A stretch of DNA of 9,222 bases from Lachnospiraceae bacterium. Its GTDB lineage: Bacteria; Bacillota_A; Clostridia; Lachnospirales; Lachnospiraceae. The translations under genes were made by a program, and so were the position numbers. Below the pieces are notes generated by a model, which searched no databases, had not been told where the DNA came from, and saw only the letters and a list, made by a program, of their open reading frames with translations. The stretch spans positions 609 to 9,830 of the forward strand of contig DMAZ01000064.1 in the NCBI GenBank assembly GCA_003446335.1, written 5' to 3'. Shown here in pieces: positions 2,543 to 7,414 of the stretch. Positions within the stretch are counted from its first letter, which is position 1. Each line of letters begins with the position of its first letter.

Positions 2543-2629
2543 GACAAGGACTGTCGGGACAGGATACTCTGATTACAGAAGAAGGAAAATATTACCTCTT
2601 ACCCGAGAAACGAATGCATGATATTGTAC

Positions 2630-2635
2630 GGGAGG
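2630..2635 (+). promoter_or_regulatory. Ribosome binding site that fixes the glgB2 start
   Basis: GGGAGG at 2630-2635 lies 5 nt before the ATG at 2641, an ideal arrangement. The in-frame upstream ATG at 2614 has no comparable site, so the longer version with nine extra residues (MHDIVREDF) is unlikely. Confidence 0.85.
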
Positions 2636-2640
2636 ATTTT

Positions 2641-4443
2641 ATGGATTTTCAGAAATTTTATAACGGTGAGGAATTCAGAGCCTATGATTTTCTTGGTGCA
2701 CATCCGCAGGATGGAGGCGGTGTGGTCTTCCGCACATTTGCGTTAAATGCGGAAAGTGTGTCCCTGATCGGTGAGTTCAATAACTGGACGGAAGCACCCA
2801 TGTCCGACGCGAAAAGGAAAGGATTCTTCGAGCTTTCTGTTCCGGAGGCCAGGGTCGGCCAGATGTATAAATATGTCATTTACAGTAAGCTGGGACGCAT
2901 TGAACACTGCGATCCCTACGGGTTCGGAATGGAGCTGAGGCCGGCATTTGCCTCGATCGTCAGAGACCTCAGGGAGTACACCTTCACGGACGATAAGTGG
3001 ATGAAGACGCGAACGCTGAATTATGACAGGCCTCTCAATATTTTCGAGATGCATGTCGGCTCCTGGAAACGCAACGAGAATGATCCCAACGGATGGTACA
3101 GGTACGATGAGATCGCTGATGATCTGATCGCCTACTGCAAGGGGCTCGGATATACGCATGTGGAATTCATGCCGCTGGCCGAGCATCCGTTCGACGGATC
3201 CTGGGGGTATCAGCAGACGGGATTCTTCGCTCCGACATCCCGCTACGGAACGGCTGCGCAGCTGAAAAAGCTGGTAGATAAGCTGCATAATGCCGGAATC
3301 GGCGCAATCGTGGATTTCGTGCCTGCCCATTTTGCAAATGATTACTACGCCCTCAAGGAATACGACGGGACCGAGCTTTACGAATACCCGGCAAGCGATG
3401 TCTCCGACAGTGAGTGGGGGACGCGCAACTTCATCTATGCCCGCCGCGAGGTCATGACCTTTATGCAGTCTGCGGCAAATTACTGGCTGGCGGAGTACCA
3501 CTTCGACGGCCTCAGAATGGATGCCATCAGCCGGGTCATCTACTGGATGGGAGATGAGAAGCGCGGTGTCAACGAGACTTCCGTAGACTTCCTGAAGAAG
3601 ATGAATGAGGGGCTTCACAGACTGCATCCGACAGCTATGCTGATCGCGGAAGATTCGACGTCCTATCCGGGGTGTACGAAACCGGCCTGGGCAGGCGGTC
3701 TCGGATTCGATTATAAGTGGGATCTGGGATGGATGAATGACACGCTGGATTATTTCATGAAGCAGTCGGATGAGCGTAAGGACCTTCCGGGCAAGCTGAC
3801 GTTCTCCATGCATTACTTCTACAATGAGAGATATATGCTTCCCCTCTCGCACGATGAGGTCGTGCACGGGAAGAAGACAATCATCGATAAGATCTTCGGC
3901 GATTACGAGATGAAGTTCCCGCAGGCAAGGGCACTGTATATGTATATGATGGTACATCCGGGCAAGACGCTGAACTTTATGGGAAATGAGATTGCCATGT
4001 TCCGTGAGTGGGATGAGACGAAGGAGCCGGACTATTTCCTTCTGAAGTATCCGATGCATGACTCTTTCCGGCATTATTTCTCGGAGCTCTGGAAAGTCTA
4101 CACGGAGACACCGGCCCTCTATGAGATGGATTATGAGCCGGAGGGATTCCGCTGGGTGACGATCAATGACAACGGACGGAACATTTTCGGTATTCAGCGG
4201 TACGCGAAGGACAGGAACAAAGGCAGTGTGATCGCGCTTTTCAATTTCTCGAACCGGGACTGCGTCTACAGGCTGCATCCCGAGAAGTCCTGCGCGATGG
4301 AGGAGATCCTGAATACAGACTGGGAGCGTTTCAGCGGGAAGACGAGAGAAGAGAAGGGACGGATGATTCGGGCCACTTCTATGGACGGGACACCGATCGC
4401 GCTGCCGGCGTTTTCGGCGGTCCTGTATAAAATTAAGCAGTGA
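2641..4443 (+). CDS. glgB: Second 1,4-alpha-glucan branching enzyme paralogue (GH13)
   Basis: A 600-residue paralogue of the preceding gene, predicted to form alpha-1,6 branches in glycogen in the cytoplasm. The N-terminal CBM48-like domain shows LGAHP at 18-22 and GEFNNW 44-49, with TFALNA where the first copy has VWAPNA. The GH13 barrel has AEHPFDGSWGYQ, DFVPAH 225-230, GLRMDAI with nucleophile D294, AEDS with acid/base E337, and SHDEVVHGKK with H404 and D405. A C-terminal beta domain ends in SAVLYKIKQ with no lysine tail. It keeps the family HGKK and FMGNE signatures that the first copy has lost, but differs after them (NEIAMFREW). Its leader carries inverted repeats and no recognisable strong promoter, so transcription could be its own or partly read-through. 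The pair is an old, diverged tandem duplication rather than a recent copy. Family call is near certain; the division of labour is unknown. Confidence 0.94.
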   Translation: MDFQKFYNGEEFRAYDFLGAHPQDGGGVVFRTFALNAESVSLIGEFNNWTEAPMSDAKRKGFFELSVPEARVGQMYKYVIYSKLGRIEHCDPYGFGMELRPAFASIVRDLREYTFTDDKWMKTRTLNYDRPLNIFEMHVGSWKRNENDPNGWYRYDEIADDLIAYCKGLGYTHVEFMPLAEHPFDGSWGYQQTGFFAPTSRYGTAAQLKKLVDKLHNAGIGAIVDFVPAHFANDYYALKEYDGTELYEYPASDVSDSEWGTRNFIYARREVMTFMQSAANYWLAEYHFDGLRMDAISRVIYWMGDEKRGVNETSVDFLKKMNEGLHRLHPTAMLIAEDSTSYPGCTKPAWAGGLGFDYKWDLGWMNDTLDYFMKQSDERKDLPGKLTFSMHYFYNERYMLPLSHDEVVHGKKTIIDKIFGDYEMKFPQARALYMYMMVHPGKTLNFMGNEIAMFREWDETKEPDYFLLKYPMHDSFRHYFSELWKVYTETPALYEMDYEPEGFRWVTINDNGRNIFGIQRYAKDRNKGSVIALFNFSNRDCVYRLHPEKSCAMEEILNTDWERFSGKTREEKGRMIRATSMDGTPIALPAFSAVLYKIKQ

Positions 4444-4472
4444 ACGCGGACTTCCCATATTTCATATCCGAA

Positions 4473-4623
4473 CAGTCTTATCATGAAATATACATCGTCA
4501 GGACGCTTCCGCTCTGTCTCGCTGGCAGCGGTACTAATGAATTTTCGGCGTTTGCACTTGAAAATTCAAAGTACCGGCCGCGAGACGAAGCCGTTCCGAT
4601 GTATATTTTCATGATTGCGACTG
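4473..4623 (+). repeat. 151-bp imperfect palindrome able to fold into one long hairpin (unidentified element or structured RNA)
   Basis: Nearly the whole stretch pairs with itself. From outside in: CAGTC 4473-4477 with GACTG 4619-4623; 4480-4497 with 4597-4615 (18 pairs, one bulge); GGACGCTTC 4501-4509 with 4587-4596 (9 pairs, one G-U, one bulge); GTCTCG 4516-4521 with CGAGAC 4581-4586; GGC with GCC; CGGTAC 4529-4534 with GTACCG 4571-4576; TGAATTTTC 4538-4546 with GAAAATTCA 4560-4568. This leaves a 13-nt apical loop (4547-4559) and totals about 56 pairs. It begins 30 bp after the glgB2 stop, so it would be in that gene's 3' untranslated RNA. No T-tract follows directly. It may be a MITE-like palindromic repeat, an RNase III target or mRNA stabiliser, or a small RNA. 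I recognise no known family. The structure is certain; its nature is not. Confidence 0.7.
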
Positions 4624-4686
4624 GACTTTCAATGTGATGTATGGGAAGCTAAAGTTAGTAATCAGGTGCATTTTACACAAAAATAA

Positions 4687-4739
4687 GGCCATATATGGTT
4701 GACATACGCAGTTATGACACCATATATGGCCCTTTTTTT
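4687..4739. terminator. Bidirectional terminator between the converging glgB2 and ATPase genes
   Basis: GGCCATATATGGT (4687-4699) and ACCATATATGGCC (4719-4731) pair perfectly over 13 bp. The 19-nt loop can itself form CATA (4703-4706) with TATG (4713-4716). On the + strand the stem is followed by C and then seven T (4733-4739). On the - strand it is followed by TTATTTTTGTG. It therefore fits termination of both glgB2 from the left and the ATPase operon from the right, whose stop codon lies 40 bp away. The stem also contains two copies of the palindrome CCATATATGG, 31 bp apart. Confidence 0.85.
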
Positions 4740-4771: not shown

Positions 4772-7414
4772 TCAGTGGCTCATCCGGTCCCGGAACGAAG
4801 CCTGCCTCCGCTCCTGCTCCTTTTTCAACCGGATTATGAGCTTGTTGGTCAGGCGCGAATACCAGTAGATCATCATCATGACCAGGATCATGAGCGGGAT
4901 GAGCAGCAGCGACCACCACATGAAGATCGAGTGCATGTCATAGAAGTTCGGCAGCAGCAGGACCGCCGCAAGGAAGGTCCCTACACACAGATAGACGATG
5001 AAGGTGCGGTATTTGCTGCCCTTCAGCGGGTGACAGACTTCCGCGACCACCAGCAGGGCCACAAGCCCGCCGAGCATCAGGTTGAAGGTCGAGAAGACGC
5101 TCACATCCCACGGGAAGATGAAGTTCAGGAACTGCACGATGAGGATCGCGGTCACCATGGTCAGGGCCGAGGGGAGCGCGACCTTCAGCACGTGACCGAG
5201 GAAACCCTCTGACGCCACATTTTCCTGCTTCTCCAGTGTGAGCAGGAAGCTCGGAAGTCCGATTGCGCACAGATTTATGAGTCCCATCTGCAGGGTCGTG
5301 AACGGATAGGTGGACTTCAGGAAAATGAACAGGAAGCTCAGTATGCAGGAATAAATCGTTTTGGTCAGGTACAGAGAGCTGACGCGTTCGATATTTGCAA
5401 TAATGGTCTTCCCCTCGCTCACGATATCCTTCATGGAGGAGAAGTCGGAGTCGAGGAGCACGATGTGCGCCGCCTGTTTGGCTGCCTCGGAGCCCGCCGC
5501 CATCGCGATGCCGCAGTCGGAATCCTTGATGGCCAGTACATCGTTCACGCCGTCTCCTACCATGGCCACGGTCTTGCCGTTGGCCTGCCAGGCTTTGACA
5601 AATGCCTGTTTCTGCTCCGGTTTCACCCTTCCGAAGACACTGTATTTCGTGATCTCCTGCGCAAAGGCAATGGGATCGGTCGGGAGCTCGGACGCGTCGG
5701 CATAATTCTCGGCGCCCGCCACTCCGGCTTTCCGGGCGACGGTGGATACGGTGATCGGGTTGTCTCCGGAGAGGACCTTGATGTCGACGCCGGCTTTGGC
5801 GAAGTATTCGAAGACTTCCCCGGCGTCCTCCTTGATTATGTCGGAGATGACGATTGCTGCCAGCGGCTCAATGCGGCCTTTCTTTTCCTTTTCGGCTGAG
5901 ATGCCGTCGGACAGGCCGAGGAGCAGTACGCGGTAGCCCTGCTCGGAGTATTTGTTTATCAGGCGAAGCGCCTTTTTGTTCTTCGGAATCAGGAACTCCG
6001 GCGCACCGATGACGAAGTCTCCGATGTCGGTGAATCCGGCTGCCTTGTATTTGCGCGCCGATGAGAACGGAATCGTCTCGCGGACCGGCCAGTCGGTCTT
6101 CTTTCCGAAGTAGTTGTCAACGGCGGTCTGTGTGGCATTGGCATCTTCAAATGCGCCGTTTATATGGGCGATGATCTCGGAGACGGTCTCCCGGTCCATA
6201 TCCCCGAACTCGATGATTTCCTCTACCTTCAGTTCACCGGTCGTGATGGTGCCGGTCTTATCCGTGCACAGGATATCTGCTCTTGCCAGCGATTCGATGG
6301 CCGCCATCTCCTGGACGAGAGCCTGCTTTCTGGCAAGTCTTCCCACACCGATGATGAAGGAGACAGACGTTAGAAGGACCAGTCCTTCCGGAATCATGCC
6401 GATGACGCCGGACACCGTGCGGAGAATAGCCGTATCGATGTCGCCGCTCGCAAGATACTGGCTTCGGAAAAGCAGAAGTCCGATCGGGACAAGAGCCACG
6501 GAGACCACTTTGATAATACGTCCGATCGTCCGCTGCATTTCTGACTGTGCTCTCTTTTTACGGGCAGCCTTGCTCACGAGCTCTGTCGCGTAGCACTCTT
6601 CACCGACTTTTTCGACCTGCATGATCGCTGTGCCGGCTGAGATGAAACTGCCGGAGAGAATCGGATCTCCGTCCGTTTTTTTGACGGGCTTTGACTCACC
6701 GGTGAGCATGGACTCGTTGACTTCGAGACCCTGGCAGAGATAGACAGAGCCGTCGGTCGTGACCTGATCGCCGGGATTCAGGTATATAATGTCATCCCGG
6801 ACGATTTCGTTGACAGGTACTTCGCATTTGGATCCGCCTCTCAGAGCCATAACTTTCGTCATAGTTATGACGTTCAGCTGATCGATCAGCTTCTTTACTT
6901 TCAGCTCCTGGATGATGCCGATGAAGGTATTCGAGATCGCGGTGCCCAGAAAGAGTACATTTTTGAGCTGGCCCGTGGTCATAACGAGAATACCGAGGAG
7001 GATATTTAAGAGGTTAAAGTATGTGAACGTGTGCAGGCGGATGATCTGACCGACGGTTTTCTGCCCCTTTTTAGGCTGGGTGTTGATCATTCCTTCCTGC
7101 GTGCGCCAGGCGACTTCCGTTTCCGTAAGTCCGGTCCGCATGATCTCCTCTTTGGGCCGGGCAGGCGGCTCGGCGATAAGCTCGGCTTTTGCTGCGGCTT
7201 TCTTACCGGAGCGCCGTTTTTTATCCGTGACCGGCTCTTCATCCGCGTCAAGCGTTTCGTCTGCTACCGGCTCTTCGTCTATTTCAGGATCTCCTCCTGT
7301 GACCGGCTCTTCATCACCGACATAATATTCGGAGAGAGTCGTATCATCCCCGGAGACGGGGAGTTTTTCTTTTATGGAATTGTTCTCTGGTGTATCTGTT
7401 TCTTTTTTAATCAT
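4772..7414 (-). CDS. CtpE-like P-type cation-transporting ATPase
   Basis: An 880-residue membrane pump that couples ATP hydrolysis to cation movement through a phospho-aspartate. The actuator motif TGES is at 238-241, PEGL in membrane helix 4 at 342-345, the phosphorylation site DKTGT with D385, and the hinge GDGVND at 620-625. Membrane helices lie near 130-148, 150-168, 300-318 and 331-360, then six more from about 668 to 865. The stretch PEGLVLLTSVSF with VQEMAAIESLARAD just before DKTG matches mycobacterial CtpE, linked to calcium uptake; the ion here is inferred. Residues 1-91 are an extension with three DEEPV-type acidic repeats and a basic KKRRSGKK patch. The ATG at 7414 has only a weak GGA site, but lies 15 nt after pth, which suggests translational coupling. 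Met92, preceded by GAGGAG only 3 nt away, would give 789 residues, close to the CtpE length. Confidence 0.9.
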   Translation of the reverse strand: MIKKETDTPENNSIKEKLPVSGDDTTLSEYYVGDEEPVTGGDPEIDEEPVADETLDADEEPVTDKKRRSGKKAAAKAELIAEPPARPKEEIMRTGLTETEVAWRTQEGMINTQPKKGQKTVGQIIRLHTFTYFNLLNILLGILVMTTGQLKNVLFLGTAISNTFIGIIQELKVKKLIDQLNVITMTKVMALRGGSKCEVPVNEIVRDDIIYLNPGDQVTTDGSVYLCQGLEVNESMLTGESKPVKKTDGDPILSGSFISAGTAIMQVEKVGEECYATELVSKAARKKRAQSEMQRTIGRIIKVVSVALVPIGLLLFRSQYLASGDIDTAILRTVSGVIGMIPEGLVLLTSVSFIIGVGRLARKQALVQEMAAIESLARADILCTDKTGTITTGELKVEEIIEFGDMDRETVSEIIAHINGAFEDANATQTAVDNYFGKKTDWPVRETIPFSSARKYKAAGFTDIGDFVIGAPEFLIPKNKKALRLINKYSEQGYRVLLLGLSDGISAEKEKKGRIEPLAAIVISDIIKEDAGEVFEYFAKAGVDIKVLSGDNPITVSTVARKAGVAGAENYADASELPTDPIAFAQEITKYSVFGRVKPEQKQAFVKAWQANGKTVAMVGDGVNDVLAIKDSDCGIAMAAGSEAAKQAAHIVLLDSDFSSMKDIVSEGKTIIANIERVSSLYLTKTIYSCILSFLFIFLKSTYPFTTLQMGLINLCAIGLPSFLLTLEKQENVASEGFLGHVLKVALPSALTMVTAILIVQFLNFIFPWDVSVFSTFNLMLGGLVALLVVAEVCHPLKGSKYRTFIVYLCVGTFLAAVLLLPNFYDMHSIFMWWSLLLIPLMILVMMMIYWYSRLTNKLIIRLKKEQERRQASFRDRMSH
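7227..7325 (-). repeat. Acidic DEEPV repeats in the ATPase N-terminal extension
   Basis: Three near-identical 17-bp units occur at 7227-7243, 7263-7279 and 7309-7325. The outer two are identical, and the middle one differs at three positions. On the coding strand they encode DEEPVT, DEEPVA and DEEPVT within a disordered-looking acidic segment of about 35 residues. The spacing is unequal (36 and 46 bp), so this is a dispersed short repeat rather than a strict tandem array. Confidence 0.75.

Follow-up and report, generated by a model that had tools for sequence, protein, structure and literature searches.

The window, a stretch of 9,222 nucleotides from a Lachnospiraceae bacterium, carries a second glgB gene and a convergent P-type ATPase gene, with a long palindromic element and a separate terminator-like hairpin between them. 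The features are as follows.

2614 to 4443, plus strand: second glgB gene (branching enzyme); the element begins 1 bp past its stop codon
4445 to 4654, plus strand (the conserved orientation of the core): whole palindromic element, probably an old MITE-like copy, from alignment to L250/L094 and to family copies
4445 to 4467, no strand assigned: left terminal inverted repeat, decayed, CGCGGACTTCCCATATTTCATAT, from arm pairing, alignment and family ends
4470 to 4499, plus strand: 5' inner arm, varying between copies and complementary to the 3' inner arm
4500 to 4534, plus strand: conserved core, 5' strand AGGACGCTTCCGCTCTGTCTCGCTGGCAGCGGTAC, consensus aCGCTc.CGCT..GcAgCGGTACTAA
4535 to 4569, plus strand: variable terminal hairpin of the core
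4570 to 4592, plus strand: conserved core, 3' strand AGTACCGGCCGCGAGACGAAGCC, consensus AAGTaCCGgC...acgccc
4593 to 4630, plus strand: 3' inner arm
4632 to 4654, no strand assigned: right terminal inverted repeat, decayed, ATGTGATGTATGGGAAGCTAAAG, from arm pairing and alignment
4679 to 4739, plus strand: terminator-like hairpin, separate from the element, from arm pairing
4772 to 7414, minus strand: P-type (E1-E2) ATPase gene, convergent

Alignment with relatives gives an element of 210 bp, its ends at 4445 and 4654 being set by eye and aligned with CTAAAACTTCCC..GGGAAGTTTKAG. An open reading frame of 65 aa at 4440-4637 had no Pfam match and was taken as spurious. The original prediction placed a palindrome at 4473 to 4623, and RNA folding confirmed that it is real: the segment 4465-4630 reached -72.9 kcal/mol where its shuffled versions averaged -39.4 (z -9.0), none of 200 shuffles being equally stable, and the segment 4440-4680 reached -95.5 kcal/mol (z -7.9). 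The proposed span, however, was too narrow, since an arm pair at 4451-4467 and 4632-4648 (17 nt, 82% complementary) lies outside it; 82 base pairs form across 4444-4655. The outer arms had been called almost perfect, which is roughly right, although they contain several bulges and mismatches. A separate terminator had also been expected at 4687, and a terminator-like hairpin is indeed present at 4679-4739, with arms (4679-4699 and 4719-4739) that are 90% complementary and seven T at the end; it was not listed by the terminator scan, and its 19-nt loop is longer than the 8 that the scan allows. The single point in favor of a one-off local inverted duplication or a chance structure at glgB is that the flanks of the window copy carry no recognisable target duplication. 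Chance is ruled out by the shuffles, and with homologues dispersed through other genomes the probability left to such an origin is negligible.

The best copy found by DNA similarity was 79% identical (E 1.1e-27). Among the genomes of the first eight GlgB loci, three (G001, G002 and G003) had matches at E<=1e-5, and in the genus of G001 matches at E<=0.01 were found in 12 of 42 genomes, the weakest in G011 (1.1e-3), scoring being limited to 19 candidate places in each genome. Matches numbered 22 in G018 and 20 in G037, counted as pieces rather than as exact copy numbers. A covariance model, R1, made from 24 copies including that of the window and run with at most seven candidates scored per genome, had matches at E<=0.001 in 78 of 397 genomes of the family, 56-58 of these at E<=1e-5, and at E<=1e-5 in 8 of 391 genomes of the class, six of the eight being already within the family sample. 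What appeared to be an isolated oddity is thus a dispersed repeat family in about one fifth (78/397) of the sampled Lachnospiraceae genomes. The original prediction recognised no known family, and this stands: the window had no match in Rfam at the gathering score, and a search of five relatives' loci at E<=1 gave two sub-gathering matches, both at L107 3060-3128 and outside the elements. An element of phage or plasmid origin was rejected, as blastn of 4430-4670 against phages and plasmids returned nothing and a 28-base core pattern had no exact match in viral contigs. No description of this palindrome family was recognised in the literature covered, which did not extend to most subscription papers or to ISfinder.

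Copies of the family have two recurring end types, A (CTMAAACTTCCCAC) and B (GGTAATTGCGAAAC). Type A ends exceeded the reversed control in all six genomes (for example, 96 vs 13 in G037 and 26 vs 8 in G001), and type B ends clearly exceeded it in four of seven (G177, G370 with 90 vs 2, G379 and G088), with no clear excess in G127, G375 and G417. The elements enclosed by inverted end pairs measure 36-431 bp and comprise complete palindromes, shortened derivatives and insert-bearing copies; in the end survey, one end or both could not be recognised in 10 of 35 copies. As in a MITE, members of the family are about 205 bp long, have inverted ends and contain no transposase gene, the ends of the window copy being decayed.

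Dispersed copies and flanking target duplications, named in the original prediction as support for a mobile element, were both found in relatives. For type A, whose ends read CTM..KAG, an exact 7-bp duplication was seen in 12 of 65 pairs, against 0.26% of mismatched flanks; at least six of the seven bases were duplicated in 19 of 65 (control 2.2%), and three further pairs had an exact 8-bp duplication (control 0.00%). These figures come from a test in which two offsets and seven lengths were tried and the ends fixed post hoc, and some of the 65 pairs are alternative pairings of one element or orthologous (L198 and L311, both among the exact 12). The 50 of 65 pairs with neither an exact 7-bp nor an exact 8-bp duplication were counted against the MITE reading. 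Type B copies have duplications of 10-12 bp, with TTTATTCCAA and ATCCAGTCTT as exact examples; 6 of 15 pairs cleared a score threshold cleared by 0.5% of mismatched flanks, and 6 of 15 had an exact core motif.

Empty sites were sought with 12 joined-flank queries, drawn from 25 two-ended elements, in seven genomes, and eight site pairs were inspected. The sites of L191 and L193 are element-free in G037 and read there as one target copy, with diverged bases next to the junction. Two candidates in G018 were rejected: at the L185 site a deletion has left one end, and at the L189 site the element is gone together with about 59 bp beside it. At L195, L198, L199 and L205 both genomes have the element, the G037 copies carrying deletions or, nested within them, a 50-nt palindrome. 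The right flank of L195 also holds a separate 75-bp palindromic repeat (query 672-746), which matches on both strands and has many matches in G001, G002, G016, G018, G037 and G056.

A likely transposase for the type A members emerged from PF01609, which had 49 matches in 13 genomes, 30 of them fetched and scanned for ends. One of the 30, at L237, is a 490-aa transposase lying between ACTCAATCTTCCCAT and ACTCAAACTTCCCAC ends, the latter at the contig end, and belongs to NCBIfam transpos_IS4_4 (451 bits). Homologues 32-40% identical occur in four other genomes, which brings the total to 5 of 24 searched carrier genomes and was counted against the MITE reading; metagenome-assembled genomes often miss multicopy IS. 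ACTAAAACTTCCCA ends enclose the elements at loci L244 and L245, the latter about 1.57 kb long; no clear duplication was found at the flanks of these two IS copies, which was likewise counted against the MITE reading. None of the 30 fetched matches (of 49) is bounded by type B ends. De Palmenaer et al. (PMC2266710, Table 1) characterise ISPepr1, a subgroup of the IS4 family, by a length of 1500-1600 bp, ends of YT-AA-YTT---A and repeats of 7-8 bp; their text describes its targets as AT-rich and names Y(2)R(3)E(6)K among the hallmarks of the family as a whole. The end consensus is present as CTAAAACTTCCCA at L244 and L245 and as CTCAATCTTCCCA and CTCAAACTTCCCA at L237, and the YREK motif as YGCRWSIECCFKVGK in L237 and YGKRWQIEVFFKTCK in L245 and L244. 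The L237 element, at about 1.72 kb, is above the ISPepr1 range, and AT-rich repeats of 7-8 bp like those of ISPepr1 were seen on the non-autonomous copies. In ends, motif, size and duplication length, type A therefore fits the ISPepr1 subgroup.

Relatives of the glgB locus were found through the GlgB protein, giving 24 loci of which the top three are 80% identical. In G037 a diverged copy, 71% identical, lies at the same place after glgB. Of the 82 pairs of the window copy, 53 are the same in the G037 copy, nine are changed on both sides, three on one side and two are gapped, while 15 are unpaired at aligned positions, partly through alignment error. The ends of the window copy are altered in concert, reading CCCATA/TATGGG instead of CCCAC/GTGGG. 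The element is absent from the glgB 3' site in G001, G002, G003, G041 and G018, the last having a GlgB 90% identical to that of the window and a contig that stops 180 bp after the gene. With these five genomes element-free and a different palindrome in G027, an insertion common to all close relatives is ruled out. One old insertion shared by the window and G037 is likelier than two independent ones, although it is not proven and the G037 insertion could be independent. The original prediction of a recent mobile palindromic element such as a MITE thus holds for the mobile MITE type and fails on its age, given the decayed ends, the lack of a duplication and the G037 counterpart at 71% identity.

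Other palindromes occupy the same intergenic place in other genomes. The one in G027 (C149, L254) is long and has a GGCAATTGCGAAA-type end, so which palindrome has entered the glgB 3' spot varies between genomes. In L001 (2074-2580) and L002 (7800-8300), glgB is followed by a tandem array of palindromic units of about 70 bp, CAAAGGCAGC..GCTGCCTTTG, which is a different palindromic repeat from the window element.

Given the recurring ends, target duplications and empty sites of its relatives, and a transposase gene bounded by matching ends, an old MITE-like insertion is the best reading of the window copy. We consider it likely that the palindrome belongs, as an old copy, to a non-autonomous, MITE-like family of IS type in Lachnospiraceae, about 205 bp long and a full-length foldback, and that it was moved in trans by an ISPepr1-like transposase and inserted behind glgB before the lineages of the window and G037 separated. 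The putative transposase would move CTAAAACTTCCCAC-bounded palindromes in trans into AT-rich sites, often immediately past stop codons. Two processes may have kept the arms complementary: the retention of both ends by transposition-competent copies, and hairpin-mediated copying from one arm to the other, which restores their pairing. After its entry behind glgB in the shared ancestor, the element would later have decayed. No function is demonstrated for the window element at this position.

The copies have in common an asymmetric core, consisting of a 5' strand CGCTYYCGCT plus GCAGCGGTACTAA, a variable terminal hairpin, AAGTACCGGC and GCCC; 3 of 46 core matches, lacking the 3' core or lying at an edge, were left out of the extraction, and the consensus includes three antisense model matches. 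The arms around the core differ between copies yet remain complementary. Among 77 model matches, 94.9% of pair cells were standard and 26 of 28 pairs had two-sided changes, with a covariation score of 0.370 against 0.130 when shuffled (0 of 500) and at most 0.082 when slid, in an alignment that was fitted to the model, holds the sequences from which the model was built and has three rows that are antisense matches. The one core occurs with both end types and with other copy-specific complementary arms, the outer arms of copies in G019, G033, G046 and G226 being of neither type, which was counted against the MITE reading.

Several copies have additional structures. In L048, L188, L310 and L311 a 50-nt hairpin, GCACAGCATAAGTTCGATCACGG..CTCACTTAT, lies inside the core at the same point, after GGGACGCT, and its presence differs between orthologous copies (L198 vs L311). 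The arms in L104 (3730-3910), L056, L155 and L156 contain a further nested palindrome, TTTATCTCAGTGGGGGATTG..CCACTGAGATAAA or variants of it. The GC-rich copies L106 and L107 (G033 and G046) have a core with two hairpins, forming a three-way junction, and very long copy-specific arms, and each of these loci contains two copies in opposite orientation.

A conserved asymmetric core that is common to two end types is more than a simple MITE accounts for. The arms could be accounted for by re-pairing through hairpins and by maintenance through transposition; the core could not, and is set apart as the piece that MITE biology leaves unexplained. The core may itself be mobile, entering the tips of existing hairpins, both MITEs and other palindromes, so that the arms are host palindromes of various origin. 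This would suit a core found beneath two end types and other copy-specific arms, and the 50-nt palindrome at one fixed point within the core of several copies shows that insertion of palindrome into palindrome occurs here. The comparable short elements L157, L160 and L165, however, resemble one-arm deletion derivatives by eye, and no clear intact arm pair without a core was recognised in an unsystematic look, which makes a mobile core quite improbable. A tentative suggestion, and one to which we give somewhat less than even weight, is that the core is an undescribed structured nucleic-acid module (aCGCTYYCGCT..GCAGCGGTACTAA-hairpin-AAGTACCGGC), acting as folded single-stranded DNA or RNA in at least two transposon end systems and in other palindromes across Lachnospiraceae. 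Such a module would be strand-specific, for example as a transposition helper or as a tolerated mRNA 3'-end signal past stop codons.

The original prediction also offered a small RNA or selected RNA structure, for which the compensatory changes speak and on which mismatch spectrum and orientation are mixed. A functional RNA in mRNA 3' regions would be a hairpin co-transcribed with the upstream gene, its core binding a protein or setting the 3' end or stability. The two-sided changes in the core are consistent with this, with the caution that compensatory changes in long bacterial hairpins alone need not signify a functional RNA. A hairpin under selection as a transcript should have more G-U than A-C mismatches. 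Family-wide, helices 2-6 had 69 G-T against 19 A-C cells, a result in favor of an RNA, the three antisense model matches being excluded here and from the gene-orientation counts. However, 38 of the 69 came from one pair, without which the counts were 31 vs 19 (p 0.12), and in helices 3-6 without that pair they were 18 vs 5, a single pair again supplying 11 of the 18. In 31 close copies (35 with L179, L182, L188 and L208 dropped, eight copies from L045-L053 and L110 being left out as well), the 69 whole-element pairs gave 29 G-T and T-G against 22 A-C and C-A (p 0.40).

Orientation gave a similarly divided picture. According to gene calls from codon usage, which are approximate, trained mostly on one genus and weaker elsewhere, the 5' neighbouring gene is directed into the core in 67 of 97 copies and away from it in 24, with six uncalled. 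In the clade of G001, G002, G016, G018, G037 and the window, the upstream gene is sense into the core in 36 of 42 called copies (p 3e-6), and co-directional neighbours number 24 vs 2; 22 of 38 copies lie at most 15 bp past an upstream stop (open frames of at least 60 codons, a count without control). The bias is weaker outside the clade (31 vs 18, p 0.085), and a second sample from G027, G041 and G056, comprising 20 copies of which two also belong to the 97, gave 13 vs 6 (p 0.17) and co-directional neighbours of 6 vs 5. As 13 vs 6 is not significant, the sense bias is either not general or not detectable in these three genomes, and, being strong in one clade, it was rejected as a rule for the family. 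The orientation counts do not distinguish replication direction from transcription, and a replication-strand bias could yield 24 of 26 (p 0.14 against 0.8). Orthologous copies are deleted or interrupted, which also argues against an RNA function. With mixed evidence from both mismatches and orientation, we regard an RNA role as on balance doubtful and less probable than the old MITE-like insertion.

The family can be compared with several known systems. ERIC, YPAL and Correia-type families are dispersed, imperfect intergenic palindromes of about 100-200 bp from other phyla, and the present family, likened to them by description only, is similar in size and in intergenic dispersal. Sites of the attC type have a variable terminal structure; a folded element with a conserved asymmetric core and a variable tip is common to both, and no attC boxes were recognised by eye. 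REPs, to our knowledge, are without target duplications. A palindrome of REP/BIME type, moved by a RAYT (Y1) transposase, would likewise be a dispersed extragenic palindrome, and the asymmetric conserved part would be in keeping with it; its length and ends, however, differ from those of the window family, in which about 205 bp, terminal inverted repeats and target duplications are features of DDE elements and the conserved core has no GTAG. REPs are described as 20-40 bp long with GTAG or CGTC tags (PMC2817692, PMC3733652), and a 20-40-bp hairpin with a GTAG or CGTC foot is not what the element family presents. The duplications and the DDE partner thus disfavour a REP/RAYT origin, which we consider highly improbable. 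The closest likeness is to the ISPepr1 elements of the IS4 family and the MITEs derived from them. By eye the palindrome resembles its partner IS little beyond the ends, and it differs from an ISPepr1 IS in being a full-length foldback with a conserved core that also occurs under another end type; as far as ISPepr1 is described in PMC2266710, the two are alike in ends of YT-AA-YTT---A, a partner of about 1.57 kb (L245), the YREK motif and AT-rich duplications of 7-8 bp.
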